Source of the DNA: Oerskovia enterophila
GTDB taxonomy: Bacteria; Actinomycetota; Actinomycetes; Actinomycetales; Cellulomonadaceae
Direction: 5' to 3'
Assembly: GCF_001692445.1 (NCBI RefSeq)
Contig: NZ_MAQA01000031.1
Span: forward strand, 1-56,082
Length of the DNA: 56,082 nucleotides
Shown here: positions 1 to 52,803 of the stretch, piece by piece
Layout of the letters: every line of letters begins with the position of its first letter
How positions within the stretch are numbered: position 1 is the stretch's first letter
The notes under the pieces: model-generated
What the model saw: the letters and a program-made list of their open reading frames with translations, nothing else
Told to the model about the DNA's origin: nothing
Database searches by the model: none
Program-made: the position numbers and the translations under genes

Positions 1-1260
1 CGCCGCGCAGTCCGCGCCGACCTCGTCCAACATGCAGTTCTGGAGCGTCGTGGCGGTGACCGACCCGGCCCGCAAGGACCGGCTCGCGGCGCTCGCCGGC
101 ACCCCCGCGAACCGGGCCAGCGAGAACAACCGGTCCGCGGCGACCGGCTGGGCGGCCGGCTCCTCGCGAGCCAGCTCCGCCAGGACCCGGCCGATCGACG
201 GCGCGAACTTGAAGCCGTGGCCCGAGAATCCCGCGGCGACCACGACGCGCCCCACGCGGTCGAGCACGAAGTCGTGGTCCGGGGTCGTGGTGTACGTGCA
301 GGAGACGGGGACGAGCCGGTCGGCGTCGGCCCCCGGGACCCACGTCCGCACGTAGTCCTGGAGCTGGGCGAGCTGCCCGGGCTCGGGCCGGAAGGTCCGC
401 CGGTCGGGGTCGGTGCGCGGCCCGACCCCGTGGAAGCCGACCTTGATCCCCTCGCCGGGCGTCGCGAGCCCGTAGACCCCGCTCGGCCACGGGTGCGGCG
501 CGGCGGGGGCGTGCGTGAAGCTGGGCCACGTGTCCTCCGCCGGTGCTCCCGGAGCGAGCGCGAAGTGCGCGGGCTGCTCCTGGGTGACGACGAGGGGCGG
601 GACGGGCGCGCCGCCGTCGGGCACCGTGAAGGCCGCACCCAGCAGGCCCGCGCTCCACGCGCCCACCGCGACCACGACCGTGTCCGCGACCAGGTCGTAC
701 CGGTCGGTGACGACCCGGACCGAGCCCGCACCCGGGTGGACGTGACGCACGTGCACCCCGTGGCGGACGTCGGCGCCGTGCGAGCGCGCCGCGGACTGGA
801 AGGCCGCGACCGCGCGGTCCGCGTGGACGCGCCCGGCCGTCGCGGTCTCGTGCAGCACGTCGCCCTCGAACCGCAGGCCGGGCCAGCGCTCGCCGGCCTC
901 CTCGGGACGCAACCACTCGTGCGCGACGCCGCGCGCGACGAACGCGTCGCCGATCTGGCCGGGGCGCGGGAAGCCGTGGCTCACGCCGCCCGTCAGGGTC
1001 AGGACGTCGCCGGTGGCCAGGCCCGCGTCGCGCTCGAGGTCGCGCCACAGGCCGAACGCCTCCTGCGCGAGGTCGAGGTAGGCGGGCTGGGCGTACGTGG
1101 TCCGGTAGATGCGCGACGCCCCGTGCGAGGCGCCCTGCGTGTGGCCGGGCTCGAAGCGTTCGAGCAGGACGACGTCGTGCCCCGCGCGTGCGAGCTGCCA
1201 CGCTGCAGCGGAGCCCATGACGCCGCCGCCGACGACGACGTGGGACACGTGCTCGGTCAT
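1..1260 (-). CDS. Monomeric sarcosine oxidase-like FAD amine oxidase, 3' end cut by window edge
   Basis: Likely oxidises a secondary or N-methylated amine or amino acid using covalent FAD in the cytoplasm, giving an aldehyde or imine and H2O2. The N-terminus carries the dinucleotide fold motif VVVGGGVMGSAA. Near codon 320 there is CTYTTTPDHDFVLD, whose Cys matches the flavin-linking Cys of the MSOX/N-methyltryptophan oxidase family. It is followed by the family hallmark GFSGHGFKFAPSIG. The ATG at 1260 has GAGAGG upstream. The frame stays open for 420 codons to base 1, longer than the usual 370-390 residues, so an extended C-terminus or a fusion lies outside the window. It is the last visible gene of the minus-strand operon, 82 bp after the substrate-binding protein. 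Its place beside an amino-acid transporter and monooxygenases suggests it works on an imported amino-acid derivative; the substrate is unknown. Confidence 0.85.
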   Translation of the reverse strand, partial: MTEHVSHVVVGGGVMGSAAAWQLARAGHDVVLLERFEPGHTQGASHGASRIYRTTYAQPAYLDLAQEAFGLWRDLERDAGLATGDVLTLTGGVSHGFPRPGQIGDAFVARGVAHEWLRPEEAGERWPGLRFEGDVLHETATAGRVHADRAVAAFQSAARSHGADVRHGVHVRHVHPGAGSVRVVTDRYDLVADTVVVAVGAWSAGLLGAAFTVPDGGAPVPPLVVTQEQPAHFALAPGAPAEDTWPSFTHAPAAPHPWPSGVYGLATPGEGIKVGFHGVGPRTDPDRRTFRPEPGQLAQLQDYVRTWVPGADADRLVPVSCTYTTTPDHDFVLDRVGRVVVAAGFSGHGFKFAPSIGRVLAELAREEPAAQPVAADRLFSLARFAGVPASAASRSLRAGSVTATTLQNCMLDEVGADCAA

Positions 1261-1342
1261 CTGGCTGCCTCTCGGTCGGTAGGTGGGGTGCCGCCGGCCC
1301 GCGGGTCCCAGGAGGATTCCGCGGGCCGGTCGGCCGTGCTGG

Positions 1343-2398
1343 TCAGGACTTGGGCAGCCCTGCGGGGTTGGTCTCGGAGGTCTCGATGGCCTCGTCCTCC
1401 AGGCCCCAGCGCTCGAGCACCTCGGCATAGCTGCCGTCCTCGATCGCGTGGTTGAGCGCGGCCGTGACCGCGGGGGCGAGCTCGTTGCCCTTGAGCGTGC
1501 CGACCGCGATCTGCGCGGTCGCGGGCCAGCCGCCGTTGAGCGTGCCGATCACCTTGAAGTCCTCGGGCGAGACCTTGGCCTTGTACGACGCGGTCGCGTT
1601 GGGCCCGAACGTCACGTCGATGCGGCCCGACTGGAGCGCGAGGATCGTGTCGCCGTCGTTCTCGAAGTACTCGATCGTGGCGGGCTCGAGCCCTGCGGCC
1701 TTGTTCTCCTCGTCCCACGCGAGCAGGATCTTCTCCTGGTTGGTCCCCGACCCGACCGCGACCGTGAGACCCGCGACGTCCTTGGCCTCGGTGATGGACG
1801 TGAGGTCGCTGTCGGCCTTGGTCAGCCAGCCGAGCTGGTCGTTGCGGTAGGACGAGAAGTCGAAGAGCTCCTTGCGCTCCTCGGTCACCGTCACGTTGGA
1901 GATCACGACGTCGACGTCGCCCGACTGGACGGCGAGCGGCCAGTCGGCCCAGGCCTTGACCTCCCACTCGACCTTCTTGCCGAGCGCGTCGCCGATGAGC
2001 TGGGCGATGTCGGTCTCGTTGCCGATCGGGGTCTTCTCGTCGTCGGCCAGGAACGCGAGCGGCGGCACGTACGCGCTGACCGCGACCTTGATCGTGTCCT
2101 TGTCCGCGAACGCGGCCGGGAGGAGCGCGACGGCCTCGGCCGACTCGGTCGTGCGGATGCGGTCCTGCTCGGGCGAGGTGTCGACGACGAGCCCGGCGGC
2201 CGCGGCGTTCTCGGCGTTGACGTCGCCCACCGGGTCGGCGTCCGCGTTCGTGGCGCATGCCGCGAGCAGCGCGAGGATGGGCAGGGTCGCGGCGATCCCC
2301 AGGACGCGGCCGGCGCGGCGGGAGGGACGACGGGCCGCGCGGGACGCAGCCGTGGATCGGGCGGTGCCGGCGGCCACGCCGGAGGTGTGCAGGGTCAT
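1343..2398 (-). CDS. Amino-acid ABC transporter substrate-binding lipoprotein
   Basis: Extracytoplasmic receptor of a polar amino-acid ABC importer (SBP_bac_3 family), 351 aa. A long, Arg-rich N-terminus precedes a hydrophobic stretch and the lipobox LALLAAC with lipidated Cys near residue 48. The body has typical family features: GNETDIAQLIGDALGKKVEW, then SGDVDVVISNVTVTEERKE (two-lobed ligand fold) and SGRIDVTFGPNATASY. It lies 76 bp after the ATPase gene, so the transporter order is permease, ATPase, receptor. The start at 2398 has GAAAGAG upstream. Sequence alone does not tell cystine from other amino acids; the operon context favours a sulfur-containing amino acid (inference). Confidence 0.93.
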   Translation of the reverse strand: MTLHTSGVAAGTARSTAASRAARRPSRRAGRVLGIAATLPILALLAACATNADADPVGDVNAENAAAAGLVVDTSPEQDRIRTTESAEAVALLPAAFADKDTIKVAVSAYVPPLAFLADDEKTPIGNETDIAQLIGDALGKKVEWEVKAWADWPLAVQSGDVDVVISNVTVTEERKELFDFSSYRNDQLGWLTKADSDLTSITEAKDVAGLTVAVGSGTNQEKILLAWDEENKAAGLEPATIEYFENDGDTILALQSGRIDVTFGPNATASYKAKVSPEDFKVIGTLNGGWPATAQIAVGTLKGNELAPAVTAALNHAIEDGSYAEVLERWGLEDEAIETSETNPAGLPKS

Positions 2399-2474
2399 CG
2401 TGTTCTCTTTCGTGGTGGGTGGACGTGCGGTGGGGTGACGCGGCCCGGGCAGCGGGTGTGCCGGGCTCCGGGCG

Positions 2475-3347
2475 TCACAGGACCTTGTCGAGGAAGGCCT
2501 TGGTCCGGTCGTGGCGGGGTGCGTCGAGGACCTGTGCGGGTGGTCCCTGCTCGACGATGCGACCGGCGTCCATGAAGACGACCGTGTCGGCGACCTCCCG
2601 CGCGAAGCCGATCTCGTGCGTCACGACGAGCATGGTCGTGCCGCCGTGCGCGAGGTCCTTGATGACGTCGAGCACCTCCCCGACGAGCTCGGGGTCGAGC
2701 GCCGAGGTCGGCTCGTCGAAGAGCAGGACGCGCGGGCGCATGGCGAGCGCGCGGGCGATCGCGACGCGCTGCTGCTGACCGCCTGACAGCTGGCGGGGCC
2801 GGGCGTCGGCCTTGTCGGCGAGGCCCACGCGGGCCAGGAGCTCGCGCGCCTCGGCCTCGACCTCGGTCCGGTCCCTGCCCTGGGCCGAGACGGGGGCCTC
2901 GACGACGTTCTCGAGGGCCGTGAGGTGCGGGAAGAGGTTGAAGCTCTGGAACACGAAGCCGATCTGGGTCCGCTGGACCAGGATCTCCTTCTCCTTGAGC
3001 TCCCGCAGGGTGTCGCCCTTGCGGGCGTAGCCGATGAGGTCGCCGTCGACCGCGATGAACCCGCGGTCGACCTTCTCGAGGTGGTTGATGACGCGCAGGA
3101 GCGTGGACTTGCCCGAGCCCGACGGACCCAGGATCACGGTGACCTCGCCCGGTCGGACCTCGAGGTCGATGCCCGCGAGCACCTCGAGCGTGCCGTAGGA
3201 CTTGTGGACGCCCCGGACCTCGACGAGGCCCGTGGCCGGGGAGCCGGCCGGGGACGTGGTCGTCGAGGCTCCGGTCGTCGCGGCGCCGCCGGCAACGGTC
3301 GTCCGGGTCACCGGGGCCGTCGCAGCAGCAGTGGTCGTGGCGGTCAT
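2475..3347 (-). CDS. Amino-acid ABC transporter ATP-binding protein
   Basis: ATPase subunit of the same importer, 290 aa, GlnQ/TcyN type. Visible motifs in order: Walker [11 protein letters not shown]-loop region [18 protein letters not shown], signature [16 protein letters not shown], Walker [14 protein letters not shown] and switch His in [14 protein letters not shown]. The open frame extends far upstream, but the ATG at 3347 overlaps the permease stop by 4 nt (ATGA), which marks coupled translation and fixes the start. About 45 low-complexity Thr/Ala-rich residues precede the ABC domain, an unusual N-terminal tail. Confidence 0.95.
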
Positions 3348-4474
3348 GCGGCACCTCCGGTGGTGCGGTCGCTCGTCCCCGTGCGCAGCAGGTGGCCGCG
3401 GCCGACCGTGGCGCGGGCCGCGTAGGCGGGGGGCAGGTGGGCGGGCGCGGGGCGGCCCGTGAGGCGGGACCACGCGACCTGGAGCGTCCAGCGGACCCGC
3501 TGGACCGGCGTCGGGGGCAGCGTGCGCACCGCGCCCTTGGCGTAGTGCCGCTCGACGTAGTACTGCGCGATCGTCAGCACGGTCGTGATGACCAGGTACC
3601 AGATCGCCGCGACCATGAGCAGCGGGACGACGCGCTGGTTGCGGCCGTAGATCACGCCGATCGTGTAGAACAGCTCGCCGTAGGCGAGGACGTACACGAC
3701 CGACGTGCCCTTGACGAGGCCGATGATCTCGTTGACCGACGTCGGCACGATGGTCCGCATGGCCTGCGGCAGCACGATACGCAGCGTCTGGCGCGAGCGC
3801 GGGATGCCGAGCGAGGCCGCGGCCTCGTGCTGCCCCTGGTCGACCGAGAGGATCCCGGCGCGCACGATCTCCGAGGAGTACGCGGCCTGCGAGAGGCCCA
3901 GGCCCAGGATCGCGGCGCCGAACTTGTCGATCACGTCGAGCGTCCCGAACTCGAGGAAGCCGGGCCCGAACGGGATGCCGAGCGAGAGCGTCGGGTAGAG
4001 GTAGGCCAGGTTGTACCAGAGCAGGAGCTGCAGGATCAGGGGCACCGAGCGGAACACCCACGTGTAGGCCGACGAGACGGCCTGGAGCAGGGGCGAGCGC
4101 GACAGGCGCATGAGCGCGAGGATCGTCCCGAGGCCGAACCCGAGGACTGCGGCGACCGCGGTCAGGCGGATGGTGCCCCACAGGCCCGCGAGGACCGAGG
4201 GCCACGTCAGGTACTGCGCGACGATCGACCACTCCCACCGGGGGTTCGTCACGAGCGAGCTCACGACCATCGCGAGCAGGACCGCGACGCCCGCGGTCGC
4301 GATCCAGCGGCCCGGGTGGCGGGCAGGGACGACCTTGAGGTCCTCCCAGCGTGTGGAGGGCGCGTCGGCGGCAGGGGCGGGCGCGAGCGTCGTCGCGCCC
4401 GGCAGGTCGGGCAGCGCCCCGGGGGGCGGGACGAGCTGGCGGGACTCGTCCTGTGGCAGGGACAGGGTGCTCAT
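3344..4474 (-). CDS. Amino-acid ABC transporter permease
   Basis: Membrane channel subunit (HisM/GlnP type), 376 aa. A hydrophilic N-terminal region of about 85 residues leads to several membrane segments. The family motif for coupling to the ATPase is visible as [26 protein letters not shown] (EAA-loop region), preceded by [21 protein letters not shown]. Start ATG 4474 has GAGGT 5-9 nt upstream. The single permease gene implies a homodimeric channel. It overlaps the ATPase gene by 4 nt and follows the GNAT gene by 95 bp. Confidence 0.94.
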
Positions 4475-4569
4475 GGGGACCTCGGGCGGGTGAGAAGGGG
4501 TCGGGCGAGGGCGCCGCGGCGGGAGCCGGGGCCAGGTCGTGCCGTGTCAGAGCGAGCGGGACGTCGAGG

Positions 4570-5268
4570 TCACGCCGGTGCTGACACGTGCGGACAGAGC
4601 CACTTCTCGAACGCCAGGGGCCCGACGTCCTCGGGGTCCCGGCTCACGTCGAACAGCGGGGTGTAGCCCGCGCTCAGATAGAGCCCGGCGGCCTCCGGCT
4701 GGCGAGGGCCGGTCGTCAGGTAGATCCGCGCGTAGCCGCGCTCGGCAGCGCGGTCCTCGAGCTCGACGAGGACCTGGCGCGCGAGCCCGCGGCGCCGGTG
4801 GGCCGAGTGGGTCCAGATGCGCTTGAGCTCGGCCGTCGCGACGAGGGGCGTGCCGTCCTCGCTGTGCGTCTCGTGAGCGTCCGGGCGGGGGTCGTCACGC
4901 AGGGCGGACCGCCCGTCCCCGGGCCGGGTCCGGCGCGCGGGCTCTCCGAGCTCAGGCTCTGCCCGACGGCGGAACGCCCCTCCCGCGACCGGCTCGCCGT
5001 CCGCGAGGAGCAGGACGAGATCGCCGTCGGGCGCTGCGAAGTCGGCAGCCGGGTAGTGCTCCATCTCGGCGCGCAGGTCGTCCTCGTCGAGGAGGTTGCG
5101 GTAGCGCGTGGCGTACTCGTGGGCGAGCTCGTCGAGGAGCGGGCGCACGAGCGGGTCGTGCAGGGTCACCGACCGGACCTCGACGGGCGCGGCGACCGAC
5201 CCTGCGGCCTGGTGCGCTGCCGCCCCCGTCCCGGTCGTGGTCTCCCTCGTCGTGGTGGGCGCGCTCAT
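4570..5268 (-). CDS. GNAT family N-acetyltransferase
   Basis: Acetyl-CoA-dependent acetyltransferase, 232 aa. The acetyl-CoA pyrophosphate loop is visible as [21 protein letters not shown], followed by the [20 protein letters not shown] segment typical of GNAT motif B. An insertion of about 35 charged residues ([19 protein letters not shown] and following) separates the two halves. Start is the ATG at 5268, which overlaps the DUF1684 stop as ATGA; the open frame upstream is a chance extension. In Bacillus ytmI-type sulfur operons an acetyltransferase acts with monooxygenases on S-substituted cysteines. A comparable role here is inference from context. Confidence 0.85.
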
Positions 5269-6209
5269 CGGGGGACCTTCTCCCCCGCCTCGACCGAGAA
5301 CGGCAGGACGTTGCCCGCGACGGGCTGCGGGCACGTGCCGAAGTCGCTGAAGGCGTAGGGCAGGTTGAGCGTGCGGTTCAGGTCGAGGCGCAGCGTCGGG
5401 CCGGGCTGCCCGTCGCTGCGGACGCCTTCTCCTGCCTCGTCCTCGTCGGCTCCTCCGCCCACCGCGTCACGGTCGACGAACAGGATCCGCCAGTCCGCGA
5501 CGCCGGGGGCCGGGTCGGTGAACAGCAGCGTGGCACCGCCGCCAGGCTTGCCCGTGAGCCGGAGCGTCGTCGTGACGCCGTCGCGGACCACGTCGACCTC
5601 GCCCACGACCTGGACGTGGTGCTCGAGCCCCGGCTGCGCGCCGCCCACGACCTCGGCGACCGGCTCGTCGTACCAGCGGACGGGCGCGTCGAGGACCCAG
5701 GCCGGGTCGTAGGAGAACGTCGGCACGCCCTCGAACGCGACCCGGGCGCGGGCCCTCGGGTCACGCACGCGCAGCCCGTAGCGCCCGGTGCGCCGCACGA
5801 GCTCGACCGCGACCGCGGAGGCCGGGTCCGCGCCGTCGGGCGCGAAGGTCGCGACGATGCGCGACGCGCCCTCCGCGACGTCCTGGACGTGGGTGCCGCG
5901 CAGCGCGTCCTGGCTGCCGGCCGGGACGATCGCGTCGGCCGCGGCCGCACGCAGGTGCACGCCCTCGGCGTCCGACCACCACTGACCGGGCAGGCCCGCG
6001 AACGTCGTCGGGGACTCCGGGACCCAGTGCAGCGCGGTGAGCGTGAGCCAGCCGTGCGGCTCGCGCAGCGACCGCTCCCGCTCGGCGTGCCAGGCGGCCC
6101 ACGCGGCCGCGCCGTCCGGGTTGCCGGTCGACGTGCCCGTCGGGGCGGACGCCGCGGCGTGGCGGCCGCGCGTGGCGACGTCGGTCGGGGTGGTGGTGCT
6201 CGTCGTCAT
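5265..6209 (-). CDS. DUF1684 family protein
   Basis: 314 aa protein of the DUF1684 family, whose biochemical role is not established. The family pattern is visible: an N-terminal AWHAERERSLREPHGWLTLT block with conserved Trp and Leu, LHWVPESPTTFAGLPGQWW, and the C-terminal signature LPYAFSDFGTCPQPVAGNVL with the conserved Cys-Pro pair and VEAGEK tail. AAGGAG sits properly before ATG 6209. It lies 46 bp after the second monooxygenase and overlaps the GNAT gene by 4 nt, so it is fully inside the sulfur-type operon. It has no signal peptide or membrane segment. Confidence 0.88.
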   Translation of the reverse strand: MTTSTTTPTDVATRGRHAAASAPTGTSTGNPDGAAAWAAWHAERERSLREPHGWLTLTALHWVPESPTTFAGLPGQWWSDAEGVHLRAAAADAIVPAGSQDALRGTHVQDVAEGASRIVATFAPDGADPASAVAVELVRRTGRYGLRVRDPRARARVAFEGVPTFSYDPAWVLDAPVRWYDEPVAEVVGGAQPGLEHHVQVVGEVDVVRDGVTTTLRLTGKPGGGATLLFTDPAPGVADWRILFVDRDAVGGGADEDEAGEGVRSDGQPGPTLRLDLNRTLNLPYAFSDFGTCPQPVAGNVLPFSVEAGEKVPR

Positions 6210-6255
6210 GATGCTCCTTCAGGACTGGTGGTCGGACGGTCGGATGCTGCGGAGG

Positions 6256-7737
6256 TCAGCTCAGGCGGGCCGAGCTGCTCGCCCCGGCCGCGACCGTGTC
6301 GCCCACGGGGGCAGGGACGGCTCCGACCTCGGGGCGCGAGAGGCCGAGGTGGTCGCGCAGCGTGGTGCCCGTGTACTCGGTGCGGAACGAGCCGCGCTCC
6401 TGGAGCAGCGGCACGACCTGGTCGAACACGTCGTCGAGCCCCGCCGGGGTCAGGTGCGGCACGAGGATGAAGCCGTCCGACGCGTCCTCCTGGACGTGCC
6501 GGTCGATGTCGTCCGCGACCTGCTGGGCCGTGCCGACGAACCCGCCCCGGCTCGTCACGTCGATCACGAGGTCGCGGATGGACCAGCCGTTGGCCGCGGC
6601 CTTCTCGCGCCAGGCGCGGACCACGGGACCTGGATCCTTGACGTGCCGGACCCGGCCCCGCGTGATGCTGAGGTGCTCCAGGTCGGGCTCGACGTCGGGC
6701 AGCGGACCCTCGGGGTCGTAGGCCGTGAGGTCGCGCCCCCAGACCTGCTCGAGGAACGCGATCGCGGTCCTGCCCGGCACCTGCTGGAGGCGGATCTCTC
6801 GCGCGCGCTCGGCGGCCTCGTCGGCCGTGTCCCCCAGGACGACGACCGTCGCCGGGAGGATCTTGAGCGAGTCGCGGTCGCGGCCGTGCGCCGCGAGGCG
6901 CGACTTCACGTCGGCGTAGAACGCCTGGCCGTCCTCGAACGCCGAGTGCGCCGAGAAGACGACGTCGGCGGTCGCCGCCGCGAAGTCGCGGCCGTCGACC
7001 GAGTCGCCCGCCTGGAACAGGACCGGGTGCCCCTGGGGCCCACGCGGGGTCTCGAACTGGCCCGACACGTCGAAGTGCTTGCCGCGGTGCGCGAACGGTC
7101 GCACTCCCCCGGGCCGCACGAGGCCCCCGGGGGCGAGGACGTCGACCGTGCCGTCGTCCTGGCCGTCGACGAGATCGATCACCGCGTCGTCGTCCCACGA
7201 GTCCCAGAGCTGCCGGGCCAGGGCCACGAGCTCGCCCGCGCGCTCGTACCGCTCCTCGTAGGGAAGGAACCCGCCGCGACGGAAGTTGGCGCCCGTGAAC
7301 GCGTCGGGGCTCGTGACGAGGTTCCAGGCCGCGCGGCCTCCCGACAGGATGTCGAGGCTCGCGAACTGGCGCGCCAGCTCGTAGGGCTCGTTGAAGGTCG
7401 TGTTGACCGTGCCTGCGAGGCCCAGGCGGTCGGTGACCGCGGCGAGGGCCGCGAGCACGGGGAGCGTGTCGGGGCGGCCCACGACGTCGAGGTCGTGGAT
7501 CTGGCCCTTGTGCTCGCGCAGGCGCAGGCCCTCGGCGAGGAAGAAGAAGTCGAGCTTGGCCTCCTCCGCCCGGCGGGCGAGGTGCTCGAACGAGCTGAAC
7601 TCGATCTGGCTGCGGGAGGCGGGGTCGCTCCACACGGTCGTGTTGTTGACGCCCGGGAAGTGGGCGCCCAGGTGGATCTGCTTGCGGGGACGGCCGTCGC
7701 GCGAGCGGGCCGTCGAGGCAGGGGTGGGGTGCGTCAT
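6256..7737 (-). CDS. LLM-class flavin monooxygenase (NtaA/SnaA/DszA type)
   Basis: Reduced-FMN-dependent monooxygenase of the bacterial luciferase superfamily, 493 aa. It starts with the KQIHLGAHFPGVNNTTVW strand and shows FNEPYELARQFASLDILSGG, followed by RAAWNLVTSP, the usual NtaA-family core near residues 105-135. Later come YERAGELVALARQLWDSW, GHPVLFQAGDS and the C-terminal VPHLTPAGLDDVFDQVVP. Family members open C-S or C-N bonds in compounds such as nitrilotriacetate, dibenzothiophene sulfone and dimethylsulfide with FMNH2 from a separate reductase. No reductase gene is seen in this operon. It is 12 bp after the first monooxygenase. Confidence 0.92.
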   Translation of the reverse strand: MTHPTPASTARSRDGRPRKQIHLGAHFPGVNNTTVWSDPASRSQIEFSSFEHLARRAEEAKLDFFFLAEGLRLREHKGQIHDLDVVGRPDTLPVLAALAAVTDRLGLAGTVNTTFNEPYELARQFASLDILSGGRAAWNLVTSPDAFTGANFRRGGFLPYEERYERAGELVALARQLWDSWDDDAVIDLVDGQDDGTVDVLAPGGLVRPGGVRPFAHRGKHFDVSGQFETPRGPQGHPVLFQAGDSVDGRDFAAATADVVFSAHSAFEDGQAFYADVKSRLAAHGRDRDSLKILPATVVVLGDTADEAAERAREIRLQQVPGRTAIAFLEQVWGRDLTAYDPEGPLPDVEPDLEHLSITRGRVRHVKDPGPVVRAWREKAAANGWSIRDLVIDVTSRGGFVGTAQQVADDIDRHVQEDASDGFILVPHLTPAGLDDVFDQVVPLLQERGSFRTEYTGTTLRDHLGLSRPEVGAVPAPVGDTVAAGASSSARLS

Positions 7738-7749
7738 GGTGGCGGGTCC

Positions 7750-9009
7750 TCAGGCGATCGCGGCGGCGTAGCGGTTGGCGGGGCGGGCGAGCCCCAGGGT
7801 GTCCCGCAGGGTCGAGCCCGGGTAGGTCGAGCGGAAGACGCCGGCCTCCTGGAGGAGCGGGACGACGTCGTCGACCAGGGCGTCGAGGTCGGTGCGGAGC
7901 GACGAGGGGCGGATCGTGAACCCGTCGGCCGCCCCGGCCTCGACCCACTCCTCGACGACCTCGGCGAGGTCGCGGGCCGTGCCCACGTGCGTGAGCGACC
8001 CGGTGTCCCACGTGATCCCCTCGAGCCCCTCGAGCAGGTCGAGGCGTGCCTGGGCGCTGGCCCGGTCCTGGCCGATCACGGCGTAGACGTCGACGAGCAC
8101 GCGCAGGTCGTCGGGGTTGCGGCCTGCCTCGGCGGCCGCGGCACGCACCTGGTCGCGCAGCGCCCGGGCGCCGTCGAGCGTCGTGGCCCGCACCCGCACG
8201 ACGTCGGCGCGGCGACCTGCGAGAGCCAGCGCCTCCGCGGAGTCCCCGCGCACGACGACCGGGGGCTGCGCCTGGGGCGAGCGGGGCGTGATCGACGGGC
8301 CCTTCACGGCGAACCGGACGCCGTCGTAGTCGACGTAGTGGAGCTTGTCGCGGTCGACGAAGCGGCCCGAGGCGACGTCACGGATCTCGGCGTCGTCCTC
8401 CCAGCTGTCCCACAGCCGGCTGACGACCTCGATGGCCTCCTCGGCCTCGGCGACCGCGTCGGTGGTGTCCTGGGCGCCCTTGCGCCCGAACAGCGCGGCG
8501 CCGGACTCGGTCGTCGACCAGCCCACCTGCCAGGCGGCGCGGCCCGCGCTCACGTGGTCGACGGTCGCGATCGCCTTGGAGACGTGGAACGGCTCGGTGT
8601 GCGTGGTGTCGACCGTCGCGACGAGCCCGATCCCCGCCGAGCGCGGTGCGAGGCGCGAGGCCACGAGGGCCGCGTCGAGGCGTCCGCGCAGCGTCGTGTT
8701 GCGCGTCGGCTGGAGCGAGAACGTGTCGTCGAACAGCGCGAAGTCGAGCACGCCGCGCTGGGCCGTGGCGACGAGCTCCTGGAGGCGCTGGCCGTCGAAC
8801 AGGCGGGGCGACTCGGACCCGACCGCGCGCCACGCACCCGCTCGTGCTCCGGCGTCGGACAGGTCGACACCCAGGTGGGCCGAGCGGCGGGGCGGCCCGT
8901 CGAGCAGGTCGTCGAGCGCGTCGAGCGACGGGTCGGTCGATCGGTCGTCCTGCTGCTCGGCGGACGAGGAGGCGGGGGTGAACAGCGGGGTCAGGTTCGA
9001 GTCAGGCAT
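7750..9009 (-). CDS. LLM-class flavin-dependent oxidoreductase, first structural gene of operon
   Basis: 419 aa luciferase-superfamily protein, shorter and more divergent than its neighbour. Core motifs: GVLDFALFDDTFSLQPTR, AGIGLVATVDTTHTEPFHV, VDHVSAGRAAWQVGWS and a C-terminal VEAGAADGFTIRPSSL. The start is placed at ATG 9009 (MPDSNLTPLF), which has GGAG about 9 nt upstream; an earlier in-frame start at 9096 adds 29 Arg/Pro-rich residues and is unlikely. Paired monooxygenases of this class occur in thioether-utilisation operons. Here it is the first gene after the Cys-rich leader peptide, so it should be the direct target of that control (inference). Confidence 0.88.
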   Translation of the reverse strand: MPDSNLTPLFTPASSSAEQQDDRSTDPSLDALDDLLDGPPRRSAHLGVDLSDAGARAGAWRAVGSESPRLFDGQRLQELVATAQRGVLDFALFDDTFSLQPTRNTTLRGRLDAALVASRLAPRSAGIGLVATVDTTHTEPFHVSKAIATVDHVSAGRAAWQVGWSTTESGAALFGRKGAQDTTDAVAEAEEAIEVVSRLWDSWEDDAEIRDVASGRFVDRDKLHYVDYDGVRFAVKGPSITPRSPQAQPPVVVRGDSAEALALAGRRADVVRVRATTLDGARALRDQVRAAAAEAGRNPDDLRVLVDVYAVIGQDRASAQARLDLLEGLEGITWDTGSLTHVGTARDLAEVVEEWVEAGAADGFTIRPSSLRTDLDALVDDVVPLLQEAGVFRSTYPGSTLRDTLGLARPANRYAAAIA

Positions 9010-9241
9010 GGGTCGTTCCACTCCGGGAGGTCGGGTGCGGGGTCGCTCGGCCGCTGTCGCAGGGATCGGCGGAAGGCCGCGGCGGGTCGCGAGCACTGCG
9101 GGGTGCAGGTGGGGGTGCAGCGGGGTGGACCGCCGGGCCGGGCGACGGGTGACCGGGGCAGGCCGGTGTTCCGGCAGGCCGCGGCGACCGCGTCACGGGC
9201 GGGGCGGTTCAGGGGCGAGCCGGCTCGGCTCGGGAGGCGTC

Positions 9242-9248
9242 AGGAGGA
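9242..9248 (-). promoter_or_regulatory. Anti-Shine-Dalgarno tract just after leader stop
   Basis: In the transcript TCCTCCT begins 9 nt after the leader stop codon. It is exactly complementary to AGGAGGA in the leader's own ribosome site (9383-9389), and could also pair with GGAG before the first monooxygenase. Such a tract is what an attenuator based on leader translation would need. The pairing is seen; the mechanism is inferred. Confidence 0.45.
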
Positions 9249-9256
9249 GCGCAGGC

Positions 9257-9379
9257 TCAACAACAGACGCGGCCCGGGACGACGGGACGCCCGGGGGAAC
9301 AACACATTCGACGGGCGGGAGCCACGGCTCCCCGTGCCGACGCGACAGGCGTGAGGACGAGCGTGTCGCGGATGTCCAC
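9257..9379 (-). CDS. Cys-rich leader peptide, putative cysteine-responsive attenuator
   Basis: Short ORF of 40 codons with a strong Shine-Dalgarno sequence GAGGAGGA 4 nt before a GTG start. The C-terminal half reads RRMCCSPGRPVVPGRVCC and ends directly at the stop. All four Cys codons are TGT, the rare choice in so GC-rich a genome. It lies 247 nt upstream of the monooxygenase operon on the same strand, behind a consensus promoter. Known mycobacterial attenuators use short ORFs ending in Cys runs to sense charged tRNA-Cys, and the same logic is inferred here. It does not show the RRxVDL motif of the other leader in the window. Protein function as such is not expected. Confidence 0.7.
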   Translation of the reverse strand: MDIRDTLVLTPVASARGAVAPARRMCCSPGRPVVPGRVCC

Positions 9380-9451
9380 GGGTCCTCCTCGGGTCGGCGG
9401 TGCTTCGGGTGCTGAGGCGCTTCGGTGCGGCGGACGGTGGCGTCTGCCGAT

Positions 9452-9487
9452 GGCCCGGAATGTATGCCCGGGTCCGGGGAGTGTCAA
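9452..9487 (-). promoter_or_regulatory. Promoter of the leader/monooxygenase/ABC operon
   Basis: TTGACA (9482-9487), 17-nt spacer and TACATT (9459-9464) on the minus strand, nearly the vegetative sigma consensus, with start of transcription near 9452. About 73 nt of leader precede the Cys-peptide GTG. An ATTC-6-GAAT inverted repeat at 9509-9522, about 20 nt upstream of the -35 box, could be an activator site. Confidence 0.75.
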
Positions 9488-9613
9488 CGACTTCGGCGAA
9501 CAGTCCGCATTCTGGACCGAATCAGTAGAGATTGTGCCCCGAACCCTGCCGAAACGGACATCGGAGGTGAGGGCCGTCGTCGGGCGTGCGCTCGACCGGG
9601 AGGTTCCCGGTGC

Positions 9614-9680
9614 CGAGGTAGAACCGTCTGCGCGAGGTAGGACGCGGCAGGCGCTACCTCGCGCAGACGGTTCTACCTCG
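9614..9680. terminator. 27-bp perfect stem-loop after the SDR gene
   Basis: Two arms of 27 nt (9614-9640 and 9654-9680) are perfect reverse complements around a 13-nt loop. The arm begins CGAGGTAGAACCGTCTG and contains GAGGTAG twice. It ends 20 bp from the stop of the minus-strand dehydrogenase and has no U-run. It is a likely terminator or extragenic palindrome. Confidence 0.7.
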
Positions 9681-9700
9681 CGGACCGGCAGCCTGGCGGG

Positions 9701-10519
9701 TCAGCGTGGCGCCATCCGGATGCCGCCGTCGAGGCGGATCACCTCGCCGTTGAGCATGGGGTTCTCGACGATCGTGCGGACCAGGCGCGCGAACTCCTCC
9801 GGGCGCCCGAGCCGCCGCGGGTGCGGCACCTGGGCCGCGAGAGACTCCTGGGCCTCCGCGGGCAACGACGCCATCATGGGCGTGCTGAAGATGCCCGGCG
9901 CGATCGTCATGACACGGATGCGCAGGTCCGCGAGGTCGCGCGCGAGCGGCAGCGTCATGGCCGCGACCCCGCCCTTCGAGGCCGCGTACGCCGCCTGGCC
10001 CACCTGACCGTCGAACGCCGCGACCGACGCGGTGTTCACGATCACACCACGCTCCTCGGGGACCCCGATGTCCCCCGGGGCACCGGCCGCCGCACCGTCT
10101 GCGCCGTCCGCGCCCACCGCCCCGTCCAGCGCGACCATGCGCTCGGCCGCGAGCCGCGCGACGTTGAACGTCCCGACGAGGTTCACGCTCACGACCTTCG
10201 CGAACGACGCCAGGTCGTGCACCCCGTTCCTGCCGAGCACGCGCCGCGCGAGCACGATCCCCGCGCAGCTCACCGCGACGTGCAGCCCGCCCAGGTCCGC
10301 AGCCGCGTCGAGGGCCCGGGACACGTCGTCCTCGCTCGTGACGTCGGTCGGGACGAACCGCACCGCATCGCCCAGGGAGTCCGCGAGCGCCTGACCGGGC
10401 GAGCCCGGCAGGTCCGCGACCACGACCCGCGCCCCGGCGCCGACCAGCTCCTCGACGGTCGCCCGGCCCAGGCCCGAGGCCCCTCCTGTCACCAGCGCGA
10501 CCTTGCCCGCGATCTCCAC
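9701..10519 (-). CDS. Short-chain dehydrogenase, type-2 3-hydroxyacyl-CoA dehydrogenase-like
   Basis: NAD(P)-dependent oxidoreductase of 272 aa. The start is GTG 10519, set by AAGGAG 6 nt upstream; the upstream open frame is not used. Motifs: cofactor loop [16 protein letters not shown] at the N-terminus, the [16 protein letters not shown] helix, active site [25 protein letters not shown] with Ser and Tyr-x-x-x-Lys. The C-terminus is [20 protein letters not shown], followed by [14 protein letters not shown], characteristic of the HSD10-like branch that oxidises short 3-hydroxyacyl-CoA. Divergent from the DNA ligase gene and apparently monocistronic. The substrate is inferred from the C-terminal signature only. 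Confidence 0.9.
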
Positions 10520-14941: not shown

Positions 14942-15915
14942 GCGGTGCGGGGGCGGTCACGACCGCCCGGCCCAGCGCGACGGGCTCCGCGGCTGCGCCC
15001 GACTTCCCGGGCTCGACGCCCAAGCTCCGCCTCGAGCACGTGCGCAAGGAGTTCATCGTGCGCGACGCGGCCGGTGGCCGCGGCGCCCGCAAGCGCTTCA
15101 CGGCCGTCGAGGACTTCACGCTCGACGTCCGGGCAGGCGAGTTCCTGACGGTCGTCGGACCCTCGGGCTGCGGCAAGTCGACGCTCCTGGACCTGCTGGG
15201 CGGGCTCACCGAGCCGACGTCGGGCCGGATCCTCCTCGACGGCTCCCCCGTGACCGGCCCCGGGCTGGACCGCGGCGTGGTCTTCCAGCAGTACGCGCTG
15301 CTGCCCTGGCGGTCGGCCCGCGCGAACGTCGAGTTCGGGCTCGAGGCCAAGGGCGTCGGGCGGGCCGCACGCGCCCGCGTCGCCGACGAGTACCTGGACC
15401 TCGTGGGCCTCACGGCCTTCGCGGACCGGTACCCGCACGAGCTCTCGGGCGGCATGAAGCAGCGGGTCGCGATCGCTCGCAGCCTCGCGTTCGACCCTGA
15501 GGTGCTCCTCATGGACGAGCCGTTCGCGGCTCTCGACGCGCAGACGCGCGAGTCGCTCCAGGACGAGCTGCTGCGCATCTGGCGCACCACGGGCAAGACG
15601 ATCGTCTTCATCACGCACGGCATCGAGGAGTCGGTGTACCTGGGCCAGCGCGTAGCGGTCATGACACCCCGCCCCGGTCGCCTGCAGACCGTGATCGACG
15701 TGGACCTCGCGGGGGCCGGCGACGCGGGTCCGTCCGGGGACGCCAGCCGGACGGACGACGGCACGGCGGACCACTCCGCCGACGACACCGGAGGGGACGT
15801 CCGTTCCTCGGCCCTGTTCGGCCGGTACCGGCACGAGGTGTGGAGCGCGCTCCACGGCTCGCCCACCCAGGCGCAGGGCGCCGCCGCAGGAACCCAGGAG
15901 GACGCCCATGTCTAG
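14938..15915 (+). CDS. Sulfonate/taurine-type ABC transporter ATP-binding protein
   Basis: 325 aa ATPase of the SsuB/TauB type. Start GTG 14938 overlaps the preceding stop (GTGA), so the much longer open frame upstream is ignored. Motifs: Walker A GPSGCGKST, Q-loop VFQQYALLPW, signature LSGGMKQRVAIARSLA, Walker B LLMDEPFAALDAQTRE, switch VFITHGIEES. A C-terminal tail of about 75 residues after the ABC core is Asp/Gly-rich and low in complexity, unlike typical members of about 255 residues. It overlaps the permease start by 8 nt. Confidence 0.94.
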   Translation: MSGAGAVTTARPSATGSAAAPDFPGSTPKLRLEHVRKEFIVRDAAGGRGARKRFTAVEDFTLDVRAGEFLTVVGPSGCGKSTLLDLLGGLTEPTSGRILLDGSPVTGPGLDRGVVFQQYALLPWRSARANVEFGLEAKGVGRAARARVADEYLDLVGLTAFADRYPHELSGGMKQRVAIARSLAFDPEVLLMDEPFAALDAQTRESLQDELLRIWRTTGKTIVFITHGIEESVYLGQRVAVMTPRPGRLQTVIDVDLAGAGDAGPSGDASRTDDGTADHSADDTGGDVRSSALFGRYRHEVWSALHGSPTQAQGAAAGTQEDAHV

Positions 15916-16810
15916 CACCGCGACCACACCGGCCCGCGTGGCCCCGGTGCCCCCGGCCGAGGACACCGTCGCGTTCGCGGACCCGCCCACGCTGGGACGC
16001 CGCCAGGCGCTCACGGCCGACCAGGACCCGACGCCCTCGCTCGCGGCCCGCCTGCGCGGCGTCGGGGCACGGGTCCTGCGGGCCTCGGCCGCGATCGTGA
16101 TCTTCCTGGCGATCTGGGAGGTCGCGCCGCGCGTCGGGCTCGTCGACCGGGTCTTCCTGCCGCCGCTCAGCGCGGTCCTCGAGTCCTTCTGGGGGCTGCT
16201 CACGAGCGGCGAGCTCGGCAAGCACGTCGGGACGAGCCTGACCCGGGCCGGCATCGGCTTCTCGATCGCGGTGCTGCTCGCGATCCCGCTGGGGATCGCG
16301 ATCGGCTGGTGGGCGAGCGTCGCGCAGTTCCTCGGCCCGTTCCTCGAGCTGTTCCGCAACACCGCCGCCCTGGCCCTGCTCCCCGTGTTCATCCTCGTCC
16401 TGGGGATCGGCGAGACCTCCAAGATCACGCTCGTCGTCTACGCGTGCTTCTTCCCCATCCTGCTCAACACGATCGCGGGGGTCCGGACCGTCGACCCCCT
16501 GCTGGTGAAGTCCGCCCGGTCGCTCGGGCTGCCGCCCGTCCGGCTGTTCCAGAAGGTCGTGCTGCCCGCCGCGGTCCCCACGATCTTCACGGGGATCCGC
16601 ATGGCCGGGACGAGCTCGATCCTCGTGCTCATCGCGGCCGAGATGGTCGGCGCCAAGGCCGGCCTCGGCTACCTCATCACCTACGCCCAGTTCAACTTCC
16701 AGATCACGAACATGTACGCCGGGATCATCGCGATCTCGCTCGTCGGCGTCTCGATCAACGCGGTGCTCGTGAGCCTCGAGCGGCACTTCTCGCGCTGGCG
16801 CACCACGTGA
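15908..16810 (+). CDS. Sulfonate/taurine-type ABC transporter permease
   Basis: 300 aa channel subunit (SsuC/TauC type) with about six membrane segments. A 45-residue hydrophilic N-terminus precedes the first segment AAIVIFLAIWEVAPRVGLVD. The ATPase-coupling EAA region is KSARSLGLPPVRLFQKVVLP, then AAVPTIFTGIRMAG; the late segment holds GLGYLITYAQFNFQITNMYA. Translation is coupled to the ATPase gene through an 8-nt overlap. It is followed by a GC-rich hairpin and then the monooxygenase. Confidence 0.93.
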   Translation: MSSTATTPARVAPVPPAEDTVAFADPPTLGRRQALTADQDPTPSLAARLRGVGARVLRASAAIVIFLAIWEVAPRVGLVDRVFLPPLSAVLESFWGLLTSGELGKHVGTSLTRAGIGFSIAVLLAIPLGIAIGWWASVAQFLGPFLELFRNTAALALLPVFILVLGIGETSKITLVVYACFFPILLNTIAGVRTVDPLLVKSARSLGLPPVRLFQKVVLPAAVPTIFTGIRMAGTSSILVLIAAEMVGAKAGLGYLITYAQFNFQITNMYAGIIAISLVGVSINAVLVSLERHFSRWRTT

Positions 16811-16841
16811 GCCGGGGCCGCCCGTCCTGGGCGGCCCCGGC
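16811..16841 (+). terminator. Intercistronic GC-rich hairpin
   Basis: Perfect 13-bp stem (16811-16823 with 16829-16841) with a 5-nt loop, starting at the permease stop codon. It lacks a U-run. It may partly terminate transcription or protect the 3' end of the transporter mRNA, setting different amounts for transporter and monooxygenase. Confidence 0.55.
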
Positions 16842-16910
16842 CCCCGCCACGACCGACCTCCCGACCCGTCACCCACACCCGCACCCACACCCACGACCAG
16901 AGGACGCACC

Positions 16911-18350
16911 ATGACCCGCCCACCCCGTCAGCTCAGCCTGAACCTCTTCATCCACCCGGCCGGCCACCACGAGGCGGCCTGGCGCCACCCGGACACCCAG
17001 CCCGAGCGCATCTTCACGGCCGACTTCTACACCGAGCTCGCCCGCACGGCCGAGGCCGCGACGTTCGACGCGGTCTTCTTCGCCGACGGTCCCGTCCTGC
17101 ACGACGGCGTCGAGTTCAACAGCGTCGGCCGCCTCGAACCGCTCCTGACGCTCGCGTCGATCGCAGCCGCGACCGAGCGGATCGGCCTCGTCGCGACGGC
17201 CTCGACCACGTTCTACGACCCGTACAACCTGGCGCGCCTCTTCTCGACGCTCGACCACCTGAGCAACGGACGGGCCGGGTGGAACATCGTGACCACGGCC
17301 TCCGAGGACGCGGCCCGCAACTTCGGCCTCGACTCCCACCCGGACCACGTCGAGCGGTACGCGCGGGCGGCCGAGTTCGTCGAGGTCGTCACCCGGCTCT
17401 GGGACAGCTGGGAGGACGACGCGGTCCTGATCGACCGCGCGTCGGGCCGCTACGCCGACCCCGCGAAGATCCACGACGTGGCCTTCCGCGGCAAGCACCT
17501 GCGCGTCGAGGGCGCGTTCAACGCGGCCCGCTCGCCCCAGGGCCACCCGGTCCTGGTCCAGGCGGGCGCCTCGAACGAGGGGCGCGCGTTCGCGAGCCGC
17601 TACGCCGAGGCGATCTTCACGGCCCACCAGCGTCTGGCCGACGCCCAGGCGTTCTACGCAGACATCAAGGCGGGGGCCGAAGCCCTGGGCCGGTCGCGCG
17701 ACGCGGTCAAGATCCTGCCGGGCATCAGCCCGTTCATCGCCTCGACCGAGGACGAGGCGCGGGCGCTCGAGCGCGAGTTCAACGAGCTCACGGTCCCCGA
17801 GTACGGGCTGCGCCAGCTCGAGAAGCTCACGGGCGTCCGCCTCGACCACGCGCAGCTCGACGGTCCCGTCCCGGCCGAGCTGTTCGCGGACGCGGGCGAC
17901 GTGACCGACAACTCGCGCAGCCGTCTCCAGGTCGTCGCGGGCATCGTCGAGCGCGAGCAGCCCACGGTCCGCGGCCTGCTCCACCGCCTCGCCGGGGCGC
18001 GCGGCCACCGCGTCGTCGCGGGCACGCCCGAGCAGGTCGCCGACACGATCGAGGAGTGGTTCACGCAGGGCGCCGCCGACGGCTTCAACGTCATGCCGCC
18101 GTACCTGCCGGGCGGCCTGGACGACTTCGCCGACCACGTCGTGCCGATCCTGCGCGAGCGCGGCCTGTTCCGTACGGAGTACGAGGGCACCACGCTGCGC
18201 GACCACCTCGGGCTCGAGCGCCCCGCGAGCCAGTACGCCTCGCCTGCTGCGGACCCGGCTCACGCCCTCCGCGACGCGAGCGGCACGGACGAGGCGAGCG
18301 ACGCCGTCGGGCAGGAGGAGGCCCGGACCGCGGAGCCGGTCCTGGCGTGA
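16911..18350 (+). CDS. LLM-class flavin monooxygenase (NtaA/SnaA/DszA type)
   Basis: 479 aa reduced-FMN monooxygenase. It opens with RQLSLNLFIHPAGHHEAAWR and shows TFDAVFFADGPVLH, ATASTTFYDPYNLARLFSTL, DHLSNGRAGWNIVTTAS and GHPVLVQAGASNEGRAFASR, all standard blocks of this family. It is homologous to the protein at 6256-7737 over the full length but belongs to a different operon. Expected to oxidise the compound imported by the upstream transporter, probably releasing sulfite or another sulfur species (inference). A separate flavin reductase is required and is not encoded nearby. Its stop overlaps the GTG of the MFS gene. Confidence 0.93.
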   Translation: MTRPPRQLSLNLFIHPAGHHEAAWRHPDTQPERIFTADFYTELARTAEAATFDAVFFADGPVLHDGVEFNSVGRLEPLLTLASIAAATERIGLVATASTTFYDPYNLARLFSTLDHLSNGRAGWNIVTTASEDAARNFGLDSHPDHVERYARAAEFVEVVTRLWDSWEDDAVLIDRASGRYADPAKIHDVAFRGKHLRVEGAFNAARSPQGHPVLVQAGASNEGRAFASRYAEAIFTAHQRLADAQAFYADIKAGAEALGRSRDAVKILPGISPFIASTEDEARALEREFNELTVPEYGLRQLEKLTGVRLDHAQLDGPVPAELFADAGDVTDNSRSRLQVVAGIVEREQPTVRGLLHRLAGARGHRVVAGTPEQVADTIEEWFTQGAADGFNVMPPYLPGGLDDFADHVVPILRERGLFRTEYEGTTLRDHLGLERPASQYASPAADPAHALRDASGTDEASDAVGQEEARTAEPVLA

Positions 18351-48586: not shown

Positions 48587-48645
48587 GGCACGTCCTCCGG
48601 TGGTCGTCGGAGTTCGCCCTGCGGCCCCTCCGCGCTTGCCCCCCT

Positions 48646-48663
48646 CCTTGTAGAGAGGGACCT
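48646..48663 (-). promoter_or_regulatory. Short hairpin between SAM-IV aptamer and gene
   Basis: Transcript CCCTC-TCTACAAG-GAGGG directly follows the aptamer. GAGGGGG in the 3' side is a ribosome-site-like tract, so it may be part of the expression platform. No U-run is present. Confidence 0.45.
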
Positions 48664-48741
48664 GGTCGTCACCCGGGGCACCCCGCCGCGGAGGAGGGTT
48701 GCCGGCCAGCAAACCGGGGTTTTGCGCTGGCACTCATGACC
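48664..48741 (-). ncRNA. SAM-IV riboswitch
   Basis: Minus-strand RNA of 78 nt starting GGTCATGAGTGCCAGCG and ending CCCCGGGTGACGACC. It contains the family core GCTGGCCGGCAACCCTCC and GGGGTGCCCCGGGTGA, which match the actinobacterial SAM-IV consensus almost base for base. P1 pairs GGTCATGAG-side GGTC with GACC at the 3' end. It lies in the 5' leader of the aminotransferase gene, 78 nt before its ATG. S-adenosylmethionine should repress that gene. A false ATG inside the aptamer makes an upstream extension of the gene that should be ignored. Confidence 0.93.
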
Positions 48742-49779: not shown

Positions 49780-49788
49780 CCGACGCAA

Positions 49789-49875
49789 CCATCCAGAGCG
49801 GCTGAGTGACTTGGCACGATGACGCCGCAGCAACCCCCCGGTGACGGGCGAGGGTGCTACCGCCACGACCGATGG
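49789..49875 (+). ncRNA. SAM-I (S-box) riboswitch
   Basis: 87-nt RNA. P1 is CCATC/GATGG (49789-49793 with 49871-49875). AGAGCGGCTGAGTGACTTGG, then CACGATGACGCCGCAGCAACC is the P2/kink-turn and SAM-binding core, and GGGTGCTACCGCCACGACC is the P4 side. These match the S-box consensus (GAGGGA...GGCCC.ATGA...GCAACC...GGTGC). The ribosome site GGAGG of the next gene overlaps the 3' strand of P1, so ligand-bound P1 can hide it: control at translation is likely. The target is methionine synthesis, which fits. Confidence 0.9.
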
Positions 49876-49884
49876 AGGATCACC

Positions 49885-51703: not shown

Positions 51704-51756
51704 CCAGCGACAGCAAGCAGGAATACCCTGACCGCCTCCCGGGGTTGGACCTGGCG

Positions 51757-52803
51757 ATGACTACCTCGCCGCGCCTCTCCGTCCTCGACCTCGTCCCCGT
51801 CCGTTCGGGACAGTCCAGCTCCCAGGCCATCGCCGCGTCCCTGGACCTCGTGCGCCTCGCCGACCGCCTCGGCTTCACGCGCTACTGGTTCGCCGAGCAC
51901 CACAACATGCCCGCGGTCGCCGCGTCCGCCCCGCCCGTCATGATCGCGGCGGCCGCCACGGTGACCGAACGGATCCGCGTCGGCTCGGGCGGCGTCATGC
52001 TCCCCAACCACGCGCCGCTCGTCGTGGCCGAGCAGTTCGCGGTCCTCGAGGCCATGGCCCCGGGACGCGTCGACCTGGGGATCGGCCGGGCGCCCGGCAG
52101 CGACCCCGTCGTCACGGCCCTGCTCCGCAGCAGCGGCCCCACGTCCGACGTCGACCGCTTCCCCCAGCACGTCCAGGACATCCGCTCGCTCATGAGCGCC
52201 GAGGGCGCCTCGGTCCGCCTCACGAGCGGCCAGGTCTACGACGTGCACGCGACCCCGGCCGCCGAGTCCGTGCCGACCGTCTGGCTGCTCGGGTCGAGCG
52301 ACTACTCGGCACGTCTGGCCGCCGAGCTCGGCCTGCCGTACGTGTTCGCCAACCACTTCTCGGGTCAGGGCATCGACGAGATCCTCGCGCTCTACCGCGA
52401 CGGCTACCGCCCGTCGCCCGAGCACCCGGCGCCGGAGACGTTCCTGACGGTCAACGTGTCGGTCGCCCCGACGCTCGCCGAGGCCCGTGCGCGCGCGCTG
52501 CCCCAGGCCCGCATGATGGCCCGCCTGCGCTCGGGCAAGCCGCTGGGCGCCCAGGAGACGGTCGAGGACGCGGCGTCGACGCCGCTCGACGGGCTCACGT
52601 CCCAGATGGCCGACGAGATGCTCGACCGCTGGATCGTCGACGAGCCCCAGGCTGCCGCGCGTCGCGTGCGCGAGCTGGCCGCCCGGCACGGCGTCGACGA
52701 GGTCATGGTCGTGCCCGTCGCGGCGTCCCGCGCCGACGAGTCGCTCGACGCGACGCCCGGCCGCACGCAGACGCTCGAGCTGCTCGCGGACGCGCTCGCC
52801 TGA
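51757..52803 (+). CDS. LLM-class flavin-dependent oxidoreductase (MsnO8/YhbW-like)
   Basis: 348 aa luciferase-superfamily protein of a different branch from the three NtaA-type enzymes. LSVLDLVPVRSGQSSSQAIA, FTRYWFAEHHNMPAVAASAP (flavin-pocket His), RIRVGSGGVMLPNHAPLVVA, then EQFAVLEAMAPGRVDLGIGR and APGSDPVVTALLR are standard. Substrate unknown. ATG 51757 has only a weak ribosome site (GGGG 16 nt upstream); TACCCT at 51724 may be a -10 box. It lies 10 bp before the MBL gene, so both are one operon. Confidence 0.92.
   Translation: MTTSPRLSVLDLVPVRSGQSSSQAIAASLDLVRLADRLGFTRYWFAEHHNMPAVAASAPPVMIAAAATVTERIRVGSGGVMLPNHAPLVVAEQFAVLEAMAPGRVDLGIGRAPGSDPVVTALLRSSGPTSDVDRFPQHVQDIRSLMSAEGASVRLTSGQVYDVHATPAAESVPTVWLLGSSDYSARLAAELGLPYVFANHFSGQGIDEILALYRDGYRPSPEHPAPETFLTVNVSVAPTLAEARARALPQARMMARLRSGKPLGAQETVEDAASTPLDGLTSQMADEMLDRWIVDEPQAAARRVRELAARHGVDEVMVVPVAASRADESLDATPGRTQTLELLADALA

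Follow-up and report, generated by a model that had tools for sequence, protein, structure and literature searches.

A probable cysteine-attenuated organosulfur salvage operon with a DUF1684 protein and an MSOX-type oxidase in Oerskovia enterophila

The operon described here lies at the start of contig NZ_MAQA01000031.1 of Oerskovia enterophila, of which a stretch of 56,082 nt was analysed as a whole (the window, to which all operon coordinates refer; the operon is on the minus strand). We consider it reasonably likely to be a cysteine-attenuated organosulfur salvage operon that resembles the CmoO/CmoJ pathway of Bacillus, without its M20 deacetylase and with an MSOX-type (sarcosine-oxidase-type) oxidase and a DUF1684 protein added. 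Its anatomy, the conservation of its leader and gene set, and its MSOX residues are established, whereas we infer every reaction, substrate and regulatory step. One promoter, followed by a 40-codon leader, precedes eight genes separated by intergenic gaps of at most 95 bp, in the following order (5' to 3'): two luciferase-like monooxygenases (LLM1 and LLM2), DUF1684, a GNAT acetyltransferase, an ABC permease and ATPase, a family-3 solute-binding protein (SBP3) and a DAO-family FAD oxidase. With the starts chosen, the successive gaps are 12, 46, -4, 95, -4, 76 and 82 bp. Coordinates, domain content and a promoter scan confirmed the initial annotation of this DNA, which had described eight co-directional genes with gaps below 100 bp, TTGACA-17-TACATT and a leader with two Cys-Cys pairs.

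The leader open reading frame (ORF; 9379..9257) has a GTG start behind the Shine-Dalgarno (SD) sequence GAGGAGG, and its peptide ends in RRMCCSPGRPVVPGRVCC, the second of the two Cys-Cys pairs abutting the stop codon. For comparison within the family, 200 genomes were drawn, and the 40 best-matching LLM1 places outside the window (at least 59% identity; places beyond these were weaker) were examined as loci, some of which are interrupted by contig ends. A leader was scored when an ORF of 12-60 codons with an ATG or GTG start, preceded by an SD-like 4-mer, had at least two Cys among its last 12 residues. By this rule, 35 of the 41 LLM1-ortholog loci (counting the window) have a leader, as do 42 of 2090 random windows taken from these loci, the loci being related rather than independent draws and the tested regions measuring 560 to about 690 bases against 620 bases for the controls. 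A stricter rule gave 18/41 loci against 4/1754 control windows. Leader sequences vary among genera, and their ends are often alike (VCC, ACCR, TCCR or SCCR before the stop); within Oerskovia, the DNA between and past the Cys pairs is highly conserved in the aligned genus relatives. This anatomy and conservation support the Cys-leader control proposed initially, and the operon is probably controlled by cysteine through its leader. The spacer between the leader and the first gene (9010..9256) is C-rich (C 0.51, G 0.28; across six sequences, C 0.48-0.52 and G 0.27-0.30), and a C-rich, G-poor spacer is compatible with Rho-dependent attenuation without proving it.

Polycysteine ORFs of mycobacteria are reportedly the subject of a 2020 study by Canestrari, to go by papers that cite it. 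The mycobacterial and actinobacterial Cys leaders, so far as passages on them describe, are like the present one in being short ORFs with Cys codons by the stop and no obvious terminator; they differ in their peptide and in standing ahead of cysteine biosynthesis genes instead of an organosulfur operon. Cys leaders without terminators were proposed ahead of cys operons in 2005, and mycobacterial cys leaders are described in the same passages as likewise without an obvious terminator (Seliverstov 2005, PMC1262725).

Upstream of the leader, the sigma70-type promoter TTGACA-17-TACATT (9487..9459) was the single match of a pattern scan of 9000-9720 (shuffled sequences: mean 0.0, sd 0.1). Its TACATT element is kept in all six aligned Oerskovia sequences and TTGACA in five of them (L067 has TTGACG). 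The box TGATTCGGTCCAGAATG (9508..9524, minus strand), a conserved inverted repeat ATTC-N6-GAAT and possible operator, is complete in four of five relatives (L064-L067), the compared stretch of the fifth (L063) starting inside it, and has a single exact copy genome-wide. A perfect inverted repeat with 27-base arms was also seen by eye at about 9614-9680, between an SDR gene and the operon promoter.

The gene set is conserved along with the leader. LLM2 adjoins LLM1 in 35 of the 40 family loci and DUF1684 is present in 34. Conservation of the neighbourhood, which the initial annotation had put forward as a check, was borne out by the joint presence of LLM1, LLM2, DUF1684, permease, ATPase, SBP and FAD oxidase in 30/40 loci (27/40 with GNAT as well), though not every relative has the operon: G043, which belongs to this genus, gave a DUF1684 match but none for LLM1. 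Content also varies among the loci, some of which contain an inserted SBP5/Dpp-type importer; the FAD oxidase is relocated in L080 and L082, and GNAT was not found in L085, L095 and L100. In L101 and L102 a shorter operon was observed, consisting of LLM1, GNAT, importer, oxidase and Cys leader, in which LLM2 and DUF1684 were not found.

The window probably carries the first half of a 14-gene operon. Positions 1..99 are a 100% identical inverted copy of bases 57340-57438 of another contig of the same genome (C28, 57,647 bases), within a nitroreductase gene, and five genus relatives are collinear with the window up to the boundary of this segment, the remaining bases matching in inverted orientation. 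Because of the inverted identical copy and the break of collinearity, the segment is read as an assembly fold-back, and the open 476-aa oxidase frame thus has a foreign, false tail. Downwards from its end, C28 encodes the nitroreductase, an MsnO8-type LLM, a rhodanese, a GNAT, an SsuD-like LLM and a CE1758-type LLM; these six genes are co-directional and follow the oxidase in the same order in the genus relative L063, where the MsnO8-type protein scores 280.4 bits with TIGR03558 (cut-off 166.95) and corresponds to the same gene on C28. From the gene order in L063, the two contigs would adjoin and the operon would run on into C28. The initial delimitation of the operon therefore stands for the eight window genes, but its continuation on C28 and the chimeric end of the oxidase had been missed.

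Both LLM1 (7750..9009; TIGR03860 285.6 bits, cut-off 279.7; PF00296) and LLM2 (6256..7737; TIGR03860 403 bits) are NtaA/DmoA-family FMN monooxygenases, LLM2 belonging to the YtnJ/DszA/NtaA group. Among solved proteins (PDB), LLM2 matches 3sdo with 262.6 bits, YtnJ with 256.7 and DszA with 246.1, only 3sdo ranking above YtnJ. The GNAT (4570..5268) matches PF00583 (1e-11), and the importer comprises a polar amino-acid ABC permease (3344..4474, PF00528), an ATPase (2475..3347, PF00005) and the SBP3 protein (1343..2398, PF00497, 89 bits). The oxidase (100..1260, PF01266 179 bits), cut short at its very end by the chimeric contig terminus, was aligned to 1el5 and retains the MSOX active-site residues, including the covalent Cys. 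Ten MSOX residues, with numbers and roles as we take them to be, are each conserved in at least 57/58 loci (some genomes being represented twice); the protein is below the NCBIfam TIGR01377 soxA_mon cut-off (224.3 vs 479.65 bits).

The Bacillus ytn cluster is governed by protein regulators. Compared with this cluster (ytmI-type operon, Cmo pathway), the Oerskovia operon has in common the GNAT, an NtaA-type LLM near YtnJ, an amino-acid ABC importer, a sulfur-type control and, in its downstream half, an MsnO8-type LLM (YtmO itself was left out of the comparison). It differs in having two NtaA-type LLMs, the MSOX-type oxidase, DUF1684, the rhodanese and the SsuD-like LLM, and in the Cys leader that takes the place of protein regulators. 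The scm (yxe) pathway for 2-succinocysteine shares an importer, a GNAT and an FMN monooxygenase of the LLM kind (ScmK was left out of the comparison), but includes the deacetylase ScmP, which the Oerskovia operon is without. In the account given in passages of PMC10863075, S-alkylcysteine is processed in Bacillus subtilis by N-acetylation, sulfoxidation by CmoO, CmoJ cleavage that yields a sulfenate plus an aldehyde, reduction and deacetylation; clusters of this species combine an acetyltransferase, a monooxygenase and an M20 deacetylase, according to parts of PMC12757645 and PMC9706529. The operon is likened to the CmoO/CmoJ pathway but not classed as a member, because the M20 deacetylase is missing from it. 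The counterpart relationship with ytmI-type operons suggested initially is thus upheld by LLM2, the GNAT and the downstream MsnO8-type LLM, but not with regard to the deacetylase.

The DUF1684 protein (5265..6209) belongs to its family by both Pfam gathering score (PF07920, 82.5 bits, cut-off 25) and fold (model pLDDT 87.5), and carries one near-invariant Cys. It differs from its haloarchaeal relatives (PDB 4dlh, 4fj4, 2lok; HVO_1043, described in part in PMC9426492) in that the first Cys of their Cx7C motif is Tyr. Its linkage to the LLM genes was examined in a class-wide sample of 296 genomes (LLM2 threshold E<=1e-120), in which LLM2 was found in 62 and DUF1684 in 114 genomes, window genome included. 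The two genes are within 10 kb in 7 of the 34 other genomes that have both, against 0.18 expected (Poisson 1e-9, to be taken as a guide only because the genomes are related). All seven linked loci also hold LLM1, adjoining LLM2, in varied gene order and together with at least one of the Dpp, MsnO8, CE1758 or SBP3 homologs, and DUF1684 is on the LLM2 strand in five.

A wider scan of contigs around DUF1684 gave at least 79 distinct loci, of which 28 were counted as Cellulomonadaceae (L104-L130 and L168, which we take to belong there in a broad sense) and 51 as outside loci. L113 is titled Sphaerisporangium and clusters with Cellulosimicrobium in the DUF1684 tree. Among the matches listed for the 51 outside loci, LLM1 and LLM2 both occur within 10 kb of DUF1684 and on its strand in nine (Rhodococcus, Nocardia, Pseudonocardia); MsnO8 occurs in 10, SBP5 with DppB in 10, SBP3 in 6, and GNAT and the oxidase in 4 each, and most remaining loci contain a lone DUF1684 by the queries used. 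In two Catellatospora loci (L141, L142), a rhodanese-like gene was observed directly before DUF1684, about 0.4-0.5 kb upstream; the gene ahead of it in L141 resembles, by eye, a cysteine dioxygenase.

In some Rhodococcus loci, most of these genes recur in reshuffled order behind a different Cys leader. L144 and L188 have the order permease, ATPase, SBP3, oxidase, GNAT, SBP5, DppB, DppC, ATPases, LLM1, LLM2, DUF1684, MsnO8, and the importer-oxidase block is conserved in four Rhodococcus loci. A Cys leader unlike that of Oerskovia (for instance one ending in RRRHIDLCRTASCHCR) is upstream of the permease in L188, L189 and L190, that is, in all three Rhodococcus starts among the five loci scanned. 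Three consecutive proteins of Rhodococcus qingshengii IGTS8 (peg5783-5785: ATPase, binding protein, sarcosine oxidase) showed a log2 change above 2 in sulfate-free dibenzothiophene culture, as given in Table 1 of PMC8557817. Their order matches L144 and L188 and fits L170 (R. qingshengii); in this part of the published proteome the likeness consists of a consecutive ATPase, binding protein and sarcosine oxidase raised without sulfate.

In the mechanism we propose, scarcity of charged tRNA-Cys would make ribosomes stall at the leader's Cys-Cys codons, allowing the operon to be read or translated; with plentiful cysteine it would be attenuated, perhaps through Rho acting on the C-rich spacer. 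The family-3 importer would take in cystine-like or S-substituted cysteines, which the GNAT would N-acetylate. N-acetyl-S-conjugates (mercapturates) might alternatively come ready-made from mycothiol detoxification. In that process mycothiol conjugates are converted to mercapturates via Mca, and because the genome encodes Mca (448 bits, above cut-off), mercapturates could be derived in this way. The MsnO8-type LLM (CmoO-like) and the NtaA-type LLM1 and LLM2 (CmoJ-like) would then oxidise and cleave the C-S bond, for which the nitroreductase-type protein might supply reduced flavin, and the SsuD-like LLM and rhodanese would add sulfonates and sulfane sulfur to the substrate range. The MSOX-type oxidase probably acts on a secondary amino acid formed in, or imported with, the same chemistry, and DUF1684 probably on a thiol, sulfenate or acyl intermediate; the thioether or N-methyl amino-acid role initially ascribed to it is a guess. 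A more specific and rather speculative version would be an actinobacterial salvage of mercapturates and S-substituted cysteines with DUF1684 as a dedicated enzyme, which would either free cysteine from N-acetylcysteine (or its sulfenate) in place of the M20 deacetylase or bind the liberated thiol through its near-invariant Cys. In this version the MSOX-type oxidase would clear thiazolidine or other secondary amino acids formed from freed cysteine and the aldehydes of C-S cleavage, and the loop from mycothiol detoxification to cysteine would be closed under tRNA-Cys control.

Several results weigh against the salvage reading. As regards regulation, the leader rule finds none in 6/41 loci (L076, L081, L083, L096, L097, L099), three of which (L076, L081, L097) contain a Cys-containing ORF in a looser scan without a control of its own; of the five loci scanned beyond the family, L191 (Nocardia) and L192 have no upstream Cys leader. 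An intrinsic terminator scan of the leader region gave 0 matches, and an RNA switch is weakly supported (compensation in 2/45 pairs, fold z -1.72). As regards chemistry, the top PDB match of both LLM1 and LLM2 is 3sdo, labelled nitrilotriacetate monooxygenase, and an M20 deacetylase is absent from the eight window and six downstream genes, seven M20 matches being on other contigs. None of the importer proteins reaches the NCBIfam equivalog cut-offs for cystine importers (TcyN and kin): the best model is cystine permease for the permease (128.5 bits vs 300) and TcyN for the ATPase (324.8 vs 406), and the SBP scores 78.4 bits vs 312 with the cystine model. A step specific to DUF1684 is opposed by the 27/34 class genomes in which it and LLM2 are unlinked within 10 kb (contig breaks may hide some), by the 54/62 LLM2-bearing class genomes without DUF1684 within 10 kb, and by the DUF1684 tree of 81 rows, in which 41 rows are lone genes and the operon members, with lone genes interspersed, do not form a single lineage. 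Among the matches listed, the FAD oxidase accompanies LLM1, LLM2 and DUF1684 in just 4 of the 9 outside loci that have these three. Lastly, the correspondence with the IGTS8 proteins relies on annotation and gene order rather than sequence, and LLM1, LLM2 and DUF1684 of the cluster go unnamed in the passages concerned (PMC8557817).

In a different reading, possible though clearly less likely, the operon brings together separate modules for sulfur scavenging (amino-acid importer, sulfonate LLMs, Opp/Dpp importer, oxidase) under one shared sulfur signal, with LLM1/LLM2, DUF1684 and the oxidase acting on unrelated substrates. The variable content of the family loci (Dpp-type insertion, moved oxidase in L080 and L082, no GNAT identified in L085, L095 and L100, neither LLM2 nor DUF1684 identified in L101 and L102) would be expected of such a bundle, as would the widely differing gene orders and an LLM2 that is mostly without linked DUF1684; the adjacency of LLM1 and LLM2 in 35/40 family and seven class loci and the importer-oxidase block kept in four Rhodococcus loci argue for a common function instead. 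Breakdown of aminopolycarboxylates or N-methyl amino acids (nitrilotriacetate, iminodiacetate, sarcosine) for carbon or nitrogen, with an incidental Cys leader, would account for the 3sdo match and the MSOX-like oxidase, but we hold it improbable in view of the conserved Cys leaders, the rhodanese and SsuD-like neighbours, the near-equal score of YtnJ for LLM2, and the induction without sulfate of a Rhodococcus block that matches by annotation and order in the published passages. The possibility that the leader ORF is Cys-rich by chance, in DNA of high G+C content, and that control passes through the upstream box alone agrees with the conservation of TGATTCGGTCCAGAATG at the promoter and the variation of leader sequences among genera, but is least credible of all given leaders in 35/41 loci against 2 percent of controls and the different Cys leaders with which Rhodococcus clusters begin.

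If the organosulfur salvage reading is correct, a sarcosine-oxidase-type enzyme behind a Cys leader could lead to the re-assignment of genes now placed under glycine metabolism. For DUF1684, solved structures exist and no assigned function was found in the literature searched, where the name turned up in a single paper that assigns an archaeal member to a thiol-relay group; its repeated linkage to NtaA-type LLMs in several actinobacterial groups suggests a metabolic context and a handful of reactions that could be tested. Different Cys leaders, moreover, precede much the same genes.

Elsewhere in the window, a possible second sulfur-source cluster was noted at 15908-18350 (plus strand), comprising an ABC permease (15908-16810) and an LLM gene (16911-18350) that matches LLM1 at 35%. 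A SAM-IV (S-adenosylmethionine) riboswitch lies at 48627-48741 (minus strand), near the start of a class-V aminotransferase gene, and a SAM riboswitch pointing away from it lies at 49786-49878 (plus strand), near the start of a gene for a Cys/Met pyridoxal-phosphate enzyme. A further luciferase-like monooxygenase gene is located just past the latter, at 51745-52803 (plus strand).

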